From Haloarcula marismortui ATCC 43049 (GTDB lineage Archaea; Halobacteriota; Halobacteria; Halobacteriales; Haloarculaceae), in NCBI RefSeq assembly GCF_000011085.1, contig NC_006396.1, positions 124,001-188,000 on the forward strand: a DNA stretch of 64,000 nucleotides. The letters are read 5' to 3'. The position numbers were made by a program, and so were the translations under genes. Shown here in pieces: positions 2,871-63,136 of this stretch (its first letter is position 1; each line of letters begins with the position of its first letter). The notes under the pieces were generated by a model. It was not told the origin of the DNA. It worked only from the letters and a program-made list of their open reading frames with translations, and searched no databases.

Positions 2871-4196
2871 ATGAGTTCGACCGAAACCGTCGATAGTTCG
2901 GCTGTGAGCAGCGGGACAATCAGTGATTACGTCGAAGCGATGGGACCGTCCTGGATTGCGGGCGCAATCGCCGCCGGCCCGGCAACGATAGCCAGCCTCG
3001 TCACTGCTGGGGGTGCGTTCGGCTACAGTCTCCTGTGGGTCGTCGTCCTCTCCGCAGGGGCGGGGGCGCTGGCGCAGTATCTCGCGATGCGGCTGGGACT
3101 GCTGACCGAGCGTGGCATTGTCGCCGTCGTCGAGGACCACCTCGGCGAAACGTGGGCGTGGCTACTGGTCGGGGACGCGGTACTCGCCGCCGGCGTGGCA
3201 CAGCTCGTCATCATGAAGACCGTCGCTACCGTTTCGGCGACGGTAACCGGTATCGACGCGCGCATCTGGGGCGTCGTCTGGGCGCTCATCCTCGCAGCAG
3301 GGCTGGCGGGCGGGGGCTATCGCTTCCTCGAACTGGCCGCGAAAATCCTCGTCCTGCTGGTCGTCGTCGCGTTCGTCGCCAGTCTGTTCGTCGTGCCCAT
3401 CGACGCCGGCGCGGCGGTGGCCGGACTGGTCCCCTCGGTCCCGTCCGGGAGCGCACTGGTCGCGGCCGGCATCCTCGGCGGCGCGGTCCACATCACGCTC
3501 ATCACGATGCATTCCTACACGATGCGGGCACGCGGCTGGACCCGCGAGGACTACGACCTCGCGACGGTCGACGTGGGGGCGTCGATGCTGGTGGCCTTTG
3601 GCATCTATAGCCTCGCCATCTTTCTGGTGACGGCGAGCGTACTCACCTCTGGCGACCTCACGACGGTCGGCGCTGCTGAGGCCCTCGGACCGCTAGTCGG
3701 CGACAGCGCCCGCTGGCTGTTCCTGCTCGGCCTCTGGGGTGCTGCCGTGTCGACGCTCGGAGGCAACACCATCGTCCCGCCGTTCCTGCTCGCCGACAAA
3801 CTCGGCTGGGGTACCACTATCGAGGATAACCGTTACCGCGGCCTGCTCGCCGCCGTTGCGCTGCTGTCTGCACCGGGCGCGTTCATCGGCGGGAACGTCC
3901 TCGGCCAACTCGTCCTCGTGCTCGCGCTCGGCACGGTCGGCACGCCGTTCGCCATCGCCCTTGTCCTCTATCTCCTGAACTCTGCTGCGGTTCCGGAGTC
4001 GAACTCGCTGCTCGCCAACGTCGGCGGGCTGGCGCTCATCGCTGTTTCGGGCGGGTTGGCCGCGAACTTCGTTGTCGAACAGCTCGGCGGGGGCGTCGGC
4101 CCACTTTCAGGGTTCGTGCTGGCGTTCGCTATCGCGCTCGGTCTCGCTATGGCTGGCCTCGGCGGGAAGTTCCTCCGGGAGGAACTCCTCGCGTGA
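2871..4196 (+). CDS. Nramp (SLC11)-family metal transporter, divergent
   Basis: A 441-residue protein with about eleven hydrophobic helices. It opens with GPSWIAGAIAAGPATIAS, which aligns with Nramp TM1. In canonical Mn2+/Fe2+ members the motif there is DPGN; here it is GPAT (residues 36-39). The TM6 motif that is usually MPH reads HIT in the stretch GGAVHITLITMHS. Membership is clear, but the usual metal ligands are missing, so the substrate may differ from the classical ones. ATG 2871 gives the typical N-terminus; ATG 2829 is an alternative. Its stop overlaps the start of the next gene in a GTGA junction, indicating coupled translation. Confidence 0.82.
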   Translation: MSSTETVDSSAVSSGTISDYVEAMGPSWIAGAIAAGPATIASLVTAGGAFGYSLLWVVVLSAGAGALAQYLAMRLGLLTERGIVAVVEDHLGETWAWLLVGDAVLAAGVAQLVIMKTVATVSATVTGIDARIWGVVWALILAAGLAGGGYRFLELAAKILVLLVVVAFVASLFVVPIDAGAAVAGLVPSVPSGSALVAAGILGGAVHITLITMHSYTMRARGWTREDYDLATVDVGASMLVAFGIYSLAIFLVTASVLTSGDLTTVGAAEALGPLVGDSARWLFLLGLWGAAVSTLGGNTIVPPFLLADKLGWGTTIEDNRYRGLLAAVALLSAPGAFIGGNVLGQLVLVLALGTVGTPFAIALVLYLLNSAAVPESNSLLANVGGLALIAVSGGLAANFVVEQLGGGVGPLSGFVLAFAIALGLAMAGLGGKFLREELLA

Positions 4197-4747
4197 CCGG
4201 TCTCCAGTTCCCGCTCTCGGGGTCGACGCTCGTCACTGGTCCCTCCAACGCCGGCAAGACGCGGACGACCGCGGCCGCCCTCAACGCCTGGCTTGACAGC
4301 GAGGGCACCGAGGGTGTTGTCGTCCTCGATTTCGCACCCGAACTCGAACGCGACGGGACAATTCTGGGCGGTCGCCTTGACCGCTTCACCACTGTGCCGG
4401 AGGCGGTCTGGCTCGGTCGCATTGACGCCAGTGCACCGCGGGCTGAGAGCGAGACGGCCGAGCAGGCGGTCGCGCTCGCCCGGGACAACGCTCGCCGTGC
4501 CGAGCAACAGCTGGACGCACTCCCGGAGACTCCCCGGGCGGTGTTCGTCAACGACGCGACGATTCCGTTCCAGCACGATTCCGTTGCGGTCAGCCGGCTC
4601 ACCGGATACTGTGAGAAGGCGGACGTAGCCGTCCTCAACGCCTTCGACAGCGACGAGCTGGGCGTCGATGACCCGGTGTCTCGGGCCGAGCGGGACGCGC
4701 TCGACCGACTCCGGCACTGGGCCGACCGGACCGTCGACCTGTCGTAG
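4193..4747 (+). CDS. P-loop NTPase-like protein coupled to the Nramp transporter gene
   Basis: A 184-residue cytoplasmic protein beginning at GTG 4193, four bases inside the end of the Nramp gene. Walker A is GPSNAGKT at residues 16-23. VVVLDF at about 42-47 could serve as a strand of the nucleotide fold, and AVFVNDATIPF at about 115-125 looks like a Walker B-type strand. No membrane segments and no DNA-binding motif are seen. The coupling suggests a partner or regulatory role for the transporter, but no Nramp-associated ATPase of this type is known to me. It could equally be a general small NTPase carried in the same transcript. Confidence 0.65.
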   Translation: MTGLQFPLSGSTLVTGPSNAGKTRTTAAALNAWLDSEGTEGVVVLDFAPELERDGTILGGRLDRFTTVPEAVWLGRIDASAPRAESETAEQAVALARDNARRAEQQLDALPETPRAVFVNDATIPFQHDSVAVSRLTGYCEKADVAVLNAFDSDELGVDDPVSRAERDALDRLRHWADRTVDLS

Positions 4748-8660: not shown

Positions 8661-9719
8661 TTAGCCGCTGGCAAACGAGAACGAAGGCGCCGTCAGGAAC
8701 GCTGTCTCGTATCCCTCGTGACGAGACACCTGTGGCGGGGCGACGACGTCGACACTGACGGACGGCGCTTGCGCTGCTGTCTCGACGATTGCGCCGTAGT
8801 GATATCCGAGTTCGGGGTGGACCGCGGCGGTCAGCGCGTCTTCAAACAGCGTCTCGCTGTCGGCCTCTACGGTTCCGTCGAGGGACATCATCGGGAGGGG
8901 AACGCGGTTGTACGGTGTCCGAGCCGAGACGGCGAGGTACGACTCACCGTCGGCAAGGAACGCCGCGTCCTGCAGCCACGTAACGGCGTAGACGCCGTCA
9001 CTCCCTTTGTCCGTCCCGAGGACCGTTCCGGGCAGGGCCGACACTTCGGGGACCTGCGAGGTTGGCACCATATCCATGTTCATCAGGTCGACCGCCGCGC
9101 GTTCGCCCTGTGAGTCCGGGAACTCCTCAAAGGAGAGCTGGTCGCGCGTGTTCTGGGCGAAGTCGAATTCGACCGTCGCCTCGCCGGCCTCGTTGAATCG
9201 GCCTTCGAGGGCACCCAGCCGGCGCTCGCCCATCCCGTTGACGCGGACCGAGAGCTGATAGACGCCGTCGCCACCGAGTGTGTAGTTGTCGCCGTAGTGA
9301 AACCCCATGTTCTGGGAGATCATCGGCCACGGGGACTTGTCGGCGACTGTCTCGCCGTCGCGCTCGATTGTGATTGAGAGGCCGGCGGACACTGGGAGTA
9401 CCATTTCCGTTTCGGGGTCCCAGATAGTCGCCATCAGGTGGACGCTGTCCTCGCTCCGGATGTCGACCTTTTCGGCTGTCGTCCCGGTTACTGTCCAGAA
9501 CCGGTGGGGAAAGGAGTAGCTCAGTCCGACCATGTACTCGCCCGCCTGCGCTATGCCGGCCATCCCCATCCCCTCTGCGTGGGTTGGGCGGTACGTGGCG
9601 TCAGGGCGGTTCTCGACCAGCGGTGGAGCGCGTGTCGACTGGGAACTCAGCGAGCCACACCCCGCCAGGACCGTCGTGCCGGCGAGGCCGGCACTGGCGA
9701 GGAACTGTCGTCGATTCAT
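8661..9719 (-). CDS. Tat-exported lipoprotein, Fe2+-transport-protein-like (DUF7350-like)
   Basis: A 352-residue protein. It starts MNRRQFLASAG, a Tat motif, with lipobox LAGC (Cys21). The N-terminal domain after the linker resembles the P19/Tp34 Fe2+-transport fold: it is Met- and His-rich (HAEGMGMAGIAQAGEYMVGLSYSF is broken here only for length; see residues about 47-70), with later HYGDNYTLGG and HYGAIVE segments. In bacteria these proteins bind copper and iron and work with Ftr1-type or Efe systems. It is the last gene of a minus-strand run with a DyP-like protein and an HTH regulator, which supports an iron role. The start at 9719 is preferred over 9740 because it begins the Tat signal. 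Confidence 0.7.
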   Translation of the reverse strand: MNRRQFLASAGLAGTTVLAGCGSLSSQSTRAPPLVENRPDATYRPTHAEGMGMAGIAQAGEYMVGLSYSFPHRFWTVTGTTAEKVDIRSEDSVHLMATIWDPETEMVLPVSAGLSITIERDGETVADKSPWPMISQNMGFHYGDNYTLGGDGVYQLSVRVNGMGERRLGALEGRFNEAGEATVEFDFAQNTRDQLSFEEFPDSQGERAAVDLMNMDMVPTSQVPEVSALPGTVLGTDKGSDGVYAVTWLQDAAFLADGESYLAVSARTPYNRVPLPMMSLDGTVEADSETLFEDALTAAVHPELGYHYGAIVETAAQAPSVSVDVVAPPQVSRHEGYETAFLTAPSFSFASG

Positions 9720-9798: not shown

Positions 9799-11162
9799 TC
9801 ACGTGTCCGGGTTCGCTCGGGGCAGGGAACGCAGCGAGCGTGGCGGAAGCAGGTAGTTCCCGCGTCGCGTGACCGTCATATACTGGAGGATACCGTTGTT
9901 CACTCGCTGCCCGACAGCGGAGTCGTTCGCGACATCGGTGCCGTTCATCGCCTGTTTTGTCGCGACGAAGTCGGCAATAGAACGCTGTAGCGAGAGGAAG
10001 TGCAATCCCGCTTCACCGCCGTCGGTCGAACTAAAGTCCCGGCGGAGGAGCGTCGGTGTTCCGTCTTCTCTGACGCGGGACATCTTCTGTGCGTGGCCGA
10101 CAACGCCCTCTCGCCGGCCGCTGTCGACCACGTCTTGTGGGCACTCACCGGCACCGTTGTCAGTGCCGAGGTTCTCGCCGACGCCTTCGACCTTGTCCTC
10201 GGCGGCGTGGGCCGGACAGAACATCTTCGAGACGCGCTGGTCTCGGGAGTCCTGTTCGTACCACTGCTGGAGTTGCAGCCGGATTTTCGAGAGGTGCTGG
10301 GTCGCGCCGCCGGCGAACGGCCCCGAATCGACCGTTACCCGGTCCTCGGAAGCCTGGTTCTCCTTGAACCCGGATTTGAATCCCATGAACAGCGGGGCCT
10401 CCTCGGGGACCGGTTCGGAGTCCGGAACCCCGTCGACGTCTTGATTCTCGGCGGGCAGACCGGCGCCGACGAATCCCGTCACAGCGGGGCCTCCTCGGGG
10501 ACCGGTTCGGAGTCCGGAACCCCGTCGACGTCTTGATTCTCGGCGGGCAGACCGGCGCCGACGAATCCCGTCCGGCGCTCCGCCTCGCGCAGGACACCCT
10601 CGAAGGTAGCGCTCATCTCGTGGTCGTTCACCGTGTCTCGGTTGCCTTTCAGCGCTTCCTCGGCGGCGATAACGGCCCGCTCGTCATCGCTCGCGAGGTG
10701 TAGCAGTGCGTCTGGTGTGTCGAGTTCTGGGTCCTCGAAGGGGGCAAGCGCCATTGGTTCGGGCAGGTCGACACCGGCTACGTCGGCCTCAAAGCGGTCG
10801 AAGTAGGCCGGACTGTATGCGAGCGTGAACAGCAGTCCCTCGTTGCTCCACTCGTAGGCCCGTTCGAGGTCTCGAAGCGCCGCTTCGACCTGCTCGCGGT
10901 CGGCATCGGTCGGCGGTCCGTCGCTGGCGTAGTCAAGCAATAGGAGGACGTGGTGTCGCGACAGTCGGTTGTTCCCCGCGTCGTCCGTCGCCAGCGACGC
11001 GTCCCAGGCGTGCTGACGCGCCGGGAGAGACGAGGGGTCGTCGGTTCCCTTGGGTACAGTTCCCGACCCGCGGTCGAGACAGGCAGCCAGCGCCGCGGTG
11101 CCGCCGATGGCCACGGCGCTCTTGGCGAACTCGCGTCGGGAAATCCCACGTTCAGTCATCAT
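9799..11162 (-). pseudogene. DyP-type peroxidase-like Tat lipoprotein, split by a 92-bp tandem duplication
   Basis: The 5' half (11162 to TGA 10479) encodes a Tat signal (SRREFAKS), a lipobox-like AAC and the N-terminal DyP-like half. The 3' half continues from GTG 10482 to 9799 in another frame and carries GVVGHAQKMSRVREDG with the likely haem-ligand His, then LLRRDF and GLHFLSLQ, typical of DyP C-termini. Removing one copy of the 92-bp repeat restores a single 423-residue frame. The usual GXXDG motif reads GFKSG, so the catalytic Asp is replaced. The stop and the downstream GTG overlap as GTGA, so two polypeptides by coupled translation are possible. The neighbourhood (iron lipoprotein, HTH regulator) recalls EfeB-type iron handling. 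A haloarchaeal DUF7405-type annotation is likely. Confidence 0.75.
10389..10572. repeat. Perfect 92-bp tandem direct duplication
   Basis: Positions 10389-10480 and 10481-10572 are identical over all 92 bases and directly adjacent; the flanking bases differ. As 92 is not a multiple of three, the duplication shifts the frame of the DyP-like gene. The lack of any mismatch points to a very recent event, or to an assembly or cloning artefact. Confidence 0.97.
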
Positions 11163-11236: not shown

Positions 11237-11740
11237 CTACTCGCTCTCGAACAGCCGGTCGAGTAGCCGGGTGAAGCGGCCCGACAGGCGGCTGGATACC
11301 GTGGGCTCAACTGCCGCGAGCAGTTCGACCGTCAGGTCCGGCCGGCAGAGCGCCAGCGTCACCCGGCCACTGTCTCGGCGCTTTTCCACGATGTCGTATT
11401 CGACCAGACCGCGCAGGTGGTGTTCGAGCGTACTCCGGGCGATATCAAGGTGGTCGGCTACCTCGTCGGGGCGAGCGGTTTCGCGCTCTATGAGCGTAAG
11501 GAGAATGTCTCTCGCCGTCTCGCGACGGAGGAAGGCGATTGCGTGGCGCTCCCATGAGTCAAATGACGACGTGTAGTAATGCGTGCGCCCGTTGACCGAC
11601 TCGCTGTGAACGCGGTCAAGCCGGGACAGGTGGTACTGGACCTGTCCCGTTGCGAGGTCCAGCGCCCGTGTTAATTCTCGGAAGTGGACGCCCGGATTCG
11701 ACTCGATATGCCGGTAAATCCGAACTCTGGTGTCGCTCAT
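11237..11740 (-). CDS. Transcription regulator with two winged-helix domains
   Basis: A 167-residue protein with two HTH modules: residues about 5-60 (RIYRHIESNPGVHFRELTRA, then a recognition segment TGQVQYHLSRLD) and about 80-140 (ILLTLIERETARPDEVADHL, then ARSTLEHHLRGL). This arrangement is common in haloarchaeal ArsR/MarR-like regulators. Its ATG overlaps the stop of the upstream membrane-protein gene by four bases (ATGA), so the two are translated together. It lies 74 bp before the DyP-like gene and probably controls this cluster, or responds with its membrane partner; that is inference. Confidence 0.8.
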   Translation of the reverse strand: MSDTRVRIYRHIESNPGVHFRELTRALDLATGQVQYHLSRLDRVHSESVNGRTHYYTSSFDSWERHAIAFLRRETARDILLTLIERETARPDEVADHLDIARSTLEHHLRGLVEYDIVEKRRDSGRVTLALCRPDLTVELLAAVEPTVSSRLSGRFTRLLDRLFESE

Positions 11741-59887: not shown

Positions 59888-62800
59888 ATGACTGACGGCG
59901 ATTGGCACGACCGTTCGGTGAATCGACGAGACTTCCTCAGTGGCATCTCAGGGCTGGTAGCGGCAGCAGCCTACTCCATGGAGGTTCCCGAAGGAATCGC
60001 TGCGCAGGTGACCTCTGGCGACAACTCCGACGTTCAGAGCGTGGCGTCTCCGGATGGCGCAATCGAGGTGACCGTCGACGTGTCCACGGGCGTCCCACAG
60101 TACGACGTGGCGTTCGGCGGGACGACGTACATCGACCTGTCTCCCATCGGGTTCGAGTTCGCGAACCAGGCGGCGTTTGGCACGGCCGTCAGCGGGTCCG
60201 GACCGGACATCACCGTCACGGGCAGCGAGAGCGGCACCAAGACGGAGACGTGGGAGCCCGAATGGGGTGACTTCGAAACGGTATCAGAGGACTACAACTT
60301 CCTCCGGCTGGGGCTGGAGGAAACGGCGAGTCCCGGCCGCTCGGCGAACATCGAGGTGCGGGTGTTCAACGACGGGCTTGGCTTCCGGGTCGCATTCGAC
60401 AGCGACTTCGGCGATTTCACCATTAGCTCCGAGACGACGGAGTTCAACTTCAGCGGCGACTACACGGCCTGGTGGATTGAGAACGAGTACGTGAATCCGC
60501 GCTTCGAACAGGAGTACACCGAGAGTTCGCTGAGTGCCATCCCGGCCGGTGACAAGGTCATCGAGACGGACGACGGCACCAGTCCCAACAACAACGTCAA
60601 GCGGGCCGGCGCACACACGCCGGTGACGATGCAGGCCGGCGACGGCACGTATCTCAGCGTGCACGAGTCGAACCTCGAGGACTACGCGACGATGGCGCTT
60701 GCCGCACAGTCCGACAGCGGGAGCAAAGAGATGGCCGTCGACCTGGCCCCGCTGCCGGACGGCAACAAGGTGTCGGCGTCGGCCCCACACGTCACGCCGT
60801 GGCGAACCGTCCAACTCGGGACCTCGCCGAGCGACCTCGTCGAATCACAGCTGGTTCCGCTGCTCGCTGACCCACTGGACGGGAGCGTGTTCCCGACGAA
60901 CTCCGACGGCACTGTCGACACAAGTTGGCTGGAGAACGGCCGCAAGTACACCGGCATCTGGTGGACGATGATTGCCGGAAGCGCCAACTGGGAGTACAAG
61001 AGCGACAGCGAAATCGAGAACAACGGCAACAACCCCGCAGAGTACATCCACGGGGCCCGGACCGAGCGGATGAAACGCTACATGGCCTTCTCCAGTGAAC
61101 ACGGCATAGACAGCGTGCTCGCGGAGGGCTGGAATAAGGGGTGGAGCAGCTACGGGGCCAACAAGGACGGGACCGACCTGGAGATGGGCGTGACCGAGTC
61201 CTACCCGGACTTCGACGTGCCCGAGGTCACCAGCTACGGGGCCAGCCTCTCGAACCCCGTCGAGATGACGATGCACGACGAGACGTCGGGGAACCTCGTC
61301 AACTACGAGGACGAAATCCAGAACGACGGCATCTTCAGTGGCTACGAGAACGAGGGGATTCGCTCAATCAAGAACGGGTACGTCAACGACCCCGGGCTGT
61401 ACGGTGATTCGAGCGACTCAACGACGGTGAGCCACAACCAGCACTGCCAGCGTTCTGTCAACCACCACCGACTCGTTATCCAGGAAGCCGCTTCGAACCG
61501 GCAGATGCTGGAGATTCACGAGGGTATCAAACCAACCGGGGAAATCAGGACGTACCCCAACGTCGCCGCTCGCGAGGTCGTCAAGGCCCAAGAGTACGAC
61601 GGGTTCGGCTCGCTGGGGTCGAACGTCGGCCGCGACCACCACGTTCTCCTGCCGTTCACGCGGATGCTCGCCGGGCCGACGAGCTACCAGCCCGGCATCT
61701 TCGACATCACGTTCAACGACAGCGAGGGCGACCAGATTCAGACCACGCGCGCCAAACAGCTCGCGATGTACCCGAACTATCTGGGCGGTATCCAGATGGC
61801 TGCCGACCGGATGGAAGCTTACGTCGACGAGTCCTTCGAGGTCGGGGAGTTCGTCCAGGCACCCTCGGGCACCCTCAACGGCATGATTACGGCCGACAGA
61901 TGGCGCAACGCCTTCGGCGCGCACTACGTCCCGGTCGACCCGAACCGGGAGCCCGACGGCGCGACGGTCCGGTTCACGGTAAAAAACGTCCCCAGCGCCG
62001 GGACCTACGACCTCCATCTGCGCTACGCGGCCGATCAGGAAGACAACTCGACAGCGGTTCAGGACAACGGCAGTCCCGAGGCGACGCTCGTCGTTAACGG
62101 CACAGAACAGACGCTCGCGCCGTCGTTCACGAGCTACTGGGACACCTGGGATATCCACACAGTGTCTGTTGACCTCGACGCGGGCACGAACCGTATCGGC
62201 ATCAAGCTCGGGTCGAACGATGTCGGCGGTTTCAACCTCAACACCGTTGGGGTCACCGACCAGGGCGCTGGCGCACCGTTCCCGGCCGCCTACAGCAACT
62301 TCAGCGACAGCGTCGCAGCGGCCGAAAACTACGACACCGAGCCGGAGTTCGACTACATCGAGAACGTCCCCGTGAGCTGGGACGAAACGGTCGCCGTCGA
62401 CGGCCAGATTGGCGATTACATCGTGACGGCGAAACGGAGCGGCGACGAGTGGTACCTCGGGGCGATGACCGACGGCACCGCCCGCGACCTGACTGTCTCA
62501 CTCGATTTCCTGTCGAGTCAGTCCGACGGCTGGACGGTCACCGAGTACGCTGACGCCGCCGAGGCCGACGTGGACAACAACCCGACCGCAGTCGTTATCA
62601 GCGACTACAACGTCTCGGCTGGCGACAGCGTCAGCATCTCCATGGGCGCGGGCGGCGGGACCGCCATGCGCATCCTCCCGTCCGACGGCAGCGACGGAAA
62701 CGACATCGTCTCCGGTGAGGCGTATGTCCTCCGGAACCGCAACAGCGGCAAGGCGCTAGATGTCGAGTTCGCCTCGACCAGTGACGGCGCGAACGTCCAT

Positions 62801-63136
62801 CAGTACGAGTACAGCGGTGGCGACAATCAGCAGTGGGTCGTCACCGACCTCGGAAACGGCTACTACAAACTGGAAGCGGTCCACAGCGGCAAGGCGCTGG
62901 ATGTCGATGCCGCCTCGACCAGCGACGGCGCGAACGTCCAGCAGTACGCCTATGCCGGCGGTGAGAACCAGCAGTGGGCTATCGAGGAGAACGCCGACGG
63001 AAGCTACCGACTGTTGGCCCGCCACAGCGGCAAAGCGCTGGATGTTGAAGCCGCCTCGACCAGCGACGGCGCGAATGTCCAGCAGTACAGCTACGTTGGC
63101 GGCGACAACCAGAAGTGGACCTTCGAGCAACTGTAG
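59888..63136 (+). CDS. Tat-exported GH97 alpha-glucosidase with CBM-like and ricin-type lectin domains
   Basis: A 1082-residue secreted enzyme. A Tat signal (VNRRDFLSG, residues 11-19) precedes a GH97 N-terminal beta-sandwich (about 45-330) and the catalytic barrel (about 340-650). Glu545 in IHEGIKPTG, Glu563 in AAREVVK and Glu569 in KAQEYD match the calcium/catalytic glutamates of inverting GH97 enzymes such as SusB. A beta-sandwich CBM-like insert (about 665-790, STYDLHLRYAA-type) precedes a GH97 C-terminal strand region and a beta-trefoil (about 943-1082) with three QxW-type repeats, each SGKALDV...QQW/QKW. It would degrade alpha-glucans outside the cell. The start is set by the TATA box. 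Confidence 0.92.
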   Translation: MTDGDWHDRSVNRRDFLSGISGLVAAAAYSMEVPEGIAAQVTSGDNSDVQSVASPDGAIEVTVDVSTGVPQYDVAFGGTTYIDLSPIGFEFANQAAFGTAVSGSGPDITVTGSESGTKTETWEPEWGDFETVSEDYNFLRLGLEETASPGRSANIEVRVFNDGLGFRVAFDSDFGDFTISSETTEFNFSGDYTAWWIENEYVNPRFEQEYTESSLSAIPAGDKVIETDDGTSPNNNVKRAGAHTPVTMQAGDGTYLSVHESNLEDYATMALAAQSDSGSKEMAVDLAPLPDGNKVSASAPHVTPWRTVQLGTSPSDLVESQLVPLLADPLDGSVFPTNSDGTVDTSWLENGRKYTGIWWTMIAGSANWEYKSDSEIENNGNNPAEYIHGARTERMKRYMAFSSEHGIDSVLAEGWNKGWSSYGANKDGTDLEMGVTESYPDFDVPEVTSYGASLSNPVEMTMHDETSGNLVNYEDEIQNDGIFSGYENEGIRSIKNGYVNDPGLYGDSSDSTTVSHNQHCQRSVNHHRLVIQEAASNRQMLEIHEGIKPTGEIRTYPNVAAREVVKAQEYDGFGSLGSNVGRDHHVLLPFTRMLAGPTSYQPGIFDITFNDSEGDQIQTTRAKQLAMYPNYLGGIQMAADRMEAYVDESFEVGEFVQAPSGTLNGMITADRWRNAFGAHYVPVDPNREPDGATVRFTVKNVPSAGTYDLHLRYAADQEDNSTAVQDNGSPEATLVVNGTEQTLAPSFTSYWDTWDIHTVSVDLDAGTNRIGIKLGSNDVGGFNLNTVGVTDQGAGAPFPAAYSNFSDSVAAAENYDTEPEFDYIENVPVSWDETVAVDGQIGDYIVTAKRSGDEWYLGAMTDGTARDLTVSLDFLSSQSDGWTVTEYADAAEADVDNNPTAVVISDYNVSAGDSVSISMGAGGGTAMRILPSDGSDGNDIVSGEAYVLRNRNSGKALDVEFASTSDGANVHQYEYSGGDNQQWVVTDLGNGYYKLEAVHSGKALDVDAASTSDGANVQQYAYAGGENQQWAIEENADGSYRLLARHSGKALDVEAASTSDGANVQQYSYVGGDNQKWTFEQL

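Follow-up and report, generated by a model that had tools for sequence, protein, structure and literature searches.

The DUF7405 gene in the 64,000-nucleotide stretch of Haloarcula marismortui ATCC 43049 DNA analyzed here (the window; chromosome I, positions 124001-188000) is split in two at a perfect 92-bp tandem duplication, and this is probably a recent, one-off, accidental frameshifting event in an otherwise intact gene. That is the likeliest of the explanations considered; an assembly artefact is its main rival, fission into two chains is possible, and a regulated switch is unlikely. The features concerned are listed in Table 1.

Tandem Repeats Finder reported positions 10389-10572 of the window as period 92, 2.0 copies, 100% match, and no indels. 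Direct comparison likewise gave two identical, directly abutting 92-mers, with 0 bases of homology beyond the unit at either side, confirming the perfect duplication described in an earlier, sequence-only reading of this DNA. Because 92 mod 3 = 2, the frame of the minus-strand gene shifts and the N-terminal ORF stops at 10481-10479, so the disruption of the reading frame that had been proposed holds; when one copy was removed in silico, translation gave 422 amino acids plus a stop, i.e., the predicted 423-codon frame, with 0 internal stops. The likelihood of an exact 92-bp tandem match arising somewhere in the chromosome by chance is ~10^-47. Each copy contains on its minus strand TCGACGG, the motif reported for 4mC methylation in H. 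marismortui (PMC6606915), which is probably a coincidence.

Table 1. Features of the split DUF7405 gene and its surroundings, in window coordinates
Feature	Coordinates	Strand	Content or basis
N-terminal ORF, 226 aa	10479..11159	-	Tat signal and lipobox (SRREFAK..LAAC), DUF7405 N-terminal domain and linker
C-terminal ORF, 227 aa	9799..10482	-	Linker and C-terminal domain (DUF7405 positions 132-347; Dyp_perox_C)
92-bp unit, copy A (gene-wise downstream copy)	10389..10480	-	Tandem Repeats Finder, direct comparison
92-bp unit, copy B (gene-wise upstream copy), identical to A	10481..10572	-	Tandem Repeats Finder, direct comparison
GTGA made by the duplication: TGA stop (10481-10479) overlapping GTG start (10482-10480)	10479..10482	-	Sequence
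AGGAGG, matching the Shine-Dalgarno consensus at all 6 nt, upstream of the GTG at a spacing of 7 nt	10490..10495	-	
Gene next downstream, encoding a Tat lipoprotein that has DUF7350 and weakly matches Iron_transport	8661..9716	-	Pfam profiles
Upstream neighbour, two-HTH regulator: HVO_0163-type N-terminal HTH and ArsR-like HTH	11237..11740	-	

Exact tandem repeats of period 15-2000 were sought over 2.864 Mb of the 3.13-Mb chromosome I. The remaining exact repeats in the scanned sequence had periods of 15, 15, 18, 24, 24, 27, 33, and 42, all divisible by 3; the 92-bp repeat is thus the longest and the sole one out of frame. With a single such event per 2.86 Mb scanned, a genome-wide habit of these duplications was ruled out, and the uniqueness of the repeat over the scanned 2.864 Mb also makes a general habit of the assembly unlikely. 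Elsewhere in the window (62737-63118), Tandem Repeats Finder detected a 141-bp unit in 2.7 copies with 77% match, the consensus of which resembles repeated lectin-type modules with QQW motifs, and which would be an old in-frame protein repeat.

The N-terminal ORF matches positions 2-162 of the DUF7405 profile (PF24152), and together with the C-terminal ORF it accounts for the whole model, which the intact H. vallismortis orthologue matches continuously (positions 2-347, 7.7e-167). The C-terminal ORF also matches Dyp_perox_C at 26.9 bits against a cut-off of 20; Dyp_perox_N had no match at E <= 0.001 anywhere in the H. marismortui genome. A search for PDB relatives by sequence alone gave spurious matches only. 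The AlphaFold2 model of the H. vallismortis orthologue (95.6% identical, mean pLDDT 81.7) was matched by Foldseek to DyPs at E of 3e-14 to 1e-12 and a TM-score of ~0.7 by target length. Within the SRREFAK...LAAC segment, Cys27 is invariant among 34 aligned orthologues and Arg8 and Arg9 are each present in at least 90%. As modeled, the restored gene product is a Tat-lipobox DUF7405 protein with a predicted two-domain DyP-peroxidase fold, and its earlier designation as a DyP-like Tat lipoprotein is borne out by the DUF7405 and Dyp_perox_C profiles, the Foldseek hits, and the conserved RR motif and lipobox Cys.

DyPs carry a GXXDG motif that includes the catalytic Asp. The presumed equivalent of that Asp is Ser232, which is invariant across the 34 orthologues; the presumed correspondence rests on residue 228 being the first of the Dyp_perox_C match rather than on a structural alignment. 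Residues 228-233 at locus L003 (the 3413-4675 protein), like the orthologues in alignment A1, have this invariant Ser in GFKSG or a similar sequence. DUF7405 proteins are alike to DyP-type peroxidases such as DtpB, DypB, and B. subtilis DyP in overall fold and in the Dyp_perox_C match, but differ in having GFKSG (or GFxS) at the presumed GXXDG position, in being ~15% identical, in giving no Dyp_perox_N match, and in being anchored by a lipobox. The family may consist of DyP-like proteins in which peroxidase chemistry is altered or absent.

The gene had also been called iron-related. In favor of this, its downstream neighbour has a Pfam Iron_transport match near the cut-off, and a DUF7350 homologue lies inside the fetched flanks at 59/71 orthologue loci; against it, no FTR1 permease was found in the H. 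marismortui genome, ruling out a complete EfeUOB-type iron system. From this gene context, an iron-related role is no more than plausible. Two more intact DUF7405 genes are present in the genome (L104, G000:C6:70714-71748; L105, G000:C8:1179216-1180199). L104 likewise lies next to a DUF7350 gene, which shares 48% identity with the one in the window, so the pair is present in duplicate on different replicons.

All 32 genus genomes searched (H. marismortui counted) matched the region. In the alignment of orthologues from other Haloarcula genomes, 28/28 have a single copy and are gap-free across the 92-bp unit, and ~70 further haloarchaeal loci are also single-copy; apart from H. marismortui, no copy-number variation of the unit was found in either set. 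Every orthologue examined outside H. marismortui has one copy. The 71 orthologue loci are collinear through the region except for two, one being cut by a contig end and the other a differently lesioned locus from a MAG. The latter orthologue (QS_5_70_17, L030:3496-4648) has a frame change and residues missing between ~152 and 201, which may stem from faulty sequencing or assembly of the MAG. Adjacent, overlapping partial DUF7405 matches occurred only in H. marismortui among the 117 genomes sampled in the order. The 28 indel-free congeners and the lack of a second adjacent split in those 117 genomes rule out recurrent instability of the site. Because the orthologues are single-copy, no other split was seen in 117 genomes, and the repeat is unique on the scanned chromosome, the duplication is, as judged by these comparisons, young and strain- or species-specific. 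Two further strains, 'H. californiae' ATCC 33799 and 'H. sinaiiensis' ATCC 33800, are assigned to H. marismortui in PMC12189638.

The zero divergence between the copies sets their age at no more than ~13-54% of the time since the split from the nearest congener, a range that depends on the number of sites taken as free to vary and that ignores gene conversion. Together with the absence of the duplication from relatives, this agrees with the very recent origin originally proposed. The nearest congener orthologue differs at 6.9% of sites, with dS of 0.24 and dN/dS of 0.10; the values for the two halves of the gene are similar, at 0.09 and 0.12. These estimates show purifying selection on the ancestral gene, and their similarity in both halves argues that the gene was functional until recently. 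Relaxed selection following an old break was not seen (dN/dS 0.10). Lineage-specific non-synonymous changes numbered 8 vs. 2 with one outgroup and 6 vs. 5 with another.

No in-register microhomology exists at the junction. Slippage usually leaves flanking microhomology, whereas a mis-join would not. We infer that template switching or (blunt) repair joining during replication produced the copy, and that a template-switch deletion of the same type could remove one copy exactly, making the event reversible in principle. Slippage on the direct repeat GGGATTC, present at both ends 93 bp apart, was rejected as it predicts an in-frame 93-bp copy and the actual junction bypasses GGGATTC; a strong hairpin as trigger was rejected because the DNA of the unit folds no better than shuffles (z of -0.3 and +0.2). 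CGGG and CCCG near the unit ends are able to pair, as do the same-strand complementary sequences described in PMC4169377, but this is unremarkable at the prevailing G+C. Most simply, the exported full-length protein would no longer be made, and the duplication probably abolishes it; the event would be an accident rather than an evolved switch, the loss being buffered by the two intact DUF7405 paralogues. Counting against this reading are the absent flanking microhomology and the nature of the junction, where a GTGA with its Shine-Dalgarno motif falls at a domain boundary, which is uncommon for a chance break.

A blunt junction is also fitted by an unmerged contig overlap, and an artefact of the Sanger-era genome, in which contigs with overlapping ends were joined and a 92-bp overlap left unmerged, is therefore retained as unlikely but of real weight. 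The exact identity of the copies, the zero homology at their ends, the uniqueness of the repeat in the scanned part of the genome, and its location in a gene under purifying selection and free of other lesions are all as this explanation would have it. On the other hand, 92 bp easily fits within one Sanger read, and the same strain has been resequenced (PacBio assembly CP039132): PMC6606915 reports that PacBio sequencing of ATCC 43049 differed from the reference mainly by 1-nt indels in G/C runs and a few IS indels, and the paper, which gives no itemised list, does not mention a 92-bp difference at this locus. Although the locus is not itemised, this silence leans towards a real duplication.

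If the duplication is real, its junction allows a second reading, for which two features missing from the sequence-only reading are relevant: the GTGA overlap with its Shine-Dalgarno motif, and a cut at a domain boundary. The two ORFs are co-directed, and the GTG at 10482-10480 is the earliest start in the open frame of the C-terminal ORF. In the AlphaFold2 model of the H. vallismortis orthologue, the cut falls in a low-confidence interdomain linker (unit residues ~197-226), leaving one domain per half. The C-half could thus be translated through termination-reinitiation and both halves could be made, the export signal being on the first half only. Functional fission, in which the ribosome stops at TGA and restarts at GTG, and separate N- and C-domain chains may reassemble and leave via Tat, is possible but improbable. 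Besides the -4 overlap with AGGAGG at a spacing of 7, the modeled assignment of one domain to each half, and the freedom of both halves from any other lesion, it gains from what is known of such pairs: in Haloferax volcanii, neighbouring genes are most often spaced by a -4 overlap (ATGA or GTGA; PMC10666635), Shine-Dalgarno motifs in haloarchaea serve mainly such reinitiation, and 13 of the 14 gene pairs tried in H. volcanii and E. coli proved to be coupled (PMC6728339). The H. volcanii reinitiation pairs (PMC6728339, PMC10666635) are alike in being co-directed with a -4 nt overlap and an upstream Shine-Dalgarno motif; however, they are established pairs, whereas the H. marismortui overlap was made by duplication within one gene and is known from sequence alone. 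Furthermore, the C-half has no Tat signal and its co-export would need hitch-hiking, a 30-residue linker segment is duplicated in both halves, and the duplication is too young for selection to show. Nor is the overlap by itself rare. When 184,990 frame-shifting duplications of 20-300 bp were enumerated in the DUF7405 gene, 18% gave a 4-nt overlap, 2.0% gave a start within 30 nt with a Shine-Dalgarno match of at least 4 nt, and 0.034% combined a 4-nt overlap with a match of 6 nt, this last figure being post hoc and a curiosity rather than a test. A coupled pair divided where the two domains meet, with products that reassemble and are exported together and with reversal by copy loss, is more doubtful still.

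Least probable of all is phase variation, in which the DyP-like lipoprotein would be switched by gaining or losing a 92-bp copy. Its precedents are bacterial. Spontaneous tandem duplications within ORFs phase-vary in pneumococcal cap3A, cap8E, and tts (Waite et al. 2001, 2003, cited in PMC4243769); there too, a duplication disrupts a surface-related gene and is precisely revertible, but laboratory work showed both the reversion and the switching, whereas the present duplication is known here from a single archaeal reference sequence. The tandem repeats of the PenA beta-lactamase (PMC4169377) are similarly de novo, short, coding-region duplications that are potentially reversible; under selection they alter the substrate spectrum, and they lie between direct repeats or complementary sequences on the same strand, in contrast to the frame-breaking H. 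marismortui duplication, which lacks an in-register direct repeat at its flanks. Tandem repeats of ~100 bp are often lost precisely, and 101-bp repeats in E. coli tetA, close to ours in length and a model for RecA-free template-switch loss, disappear frequently whether or not RecA is present, albeit from an engineered, bacterial, plasmid-borne deletion reporter (PMC8378479). By this analogy, the recA-like recombination suggested for reversal at the locus would not be required. Precise loss in E. coli and the pneumococcal reversions make an OFF-to-ON route plausible here. A switch also needs ON-to-OFF change at an appreciable rate, for which flanking repeats, indel history, and relatives give no support: the site has neither a record of indels nor a flanking direct repeat to promote re-duplication, and a second genome with the repeat was not found among 28 congeners and 117 genomes of the order. 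The proposal of a simple on/off switch is thus not upheld by the genomes examined. Haloarchaea are moreover polyploid (PMC5626843), so that mixed alleles could occur within one cell, and polyploidy and possible gene conversion would hamper clean switching.

For users of this widely used reference genome, the finding is a caution: one of its DUF7405 genes is in two pieces owing to a duplication shared with no examined relative. If real, the duplication would be a clean natural substrate with which to measure tandem-repeat loss in a polyploid archaeon. If both halves are made and work, the locus would show how a single step can yield two overlapping genes with coupled translation, and true fission would make it a new natural example of one gene becoming two and of how an overlapping pair is born.
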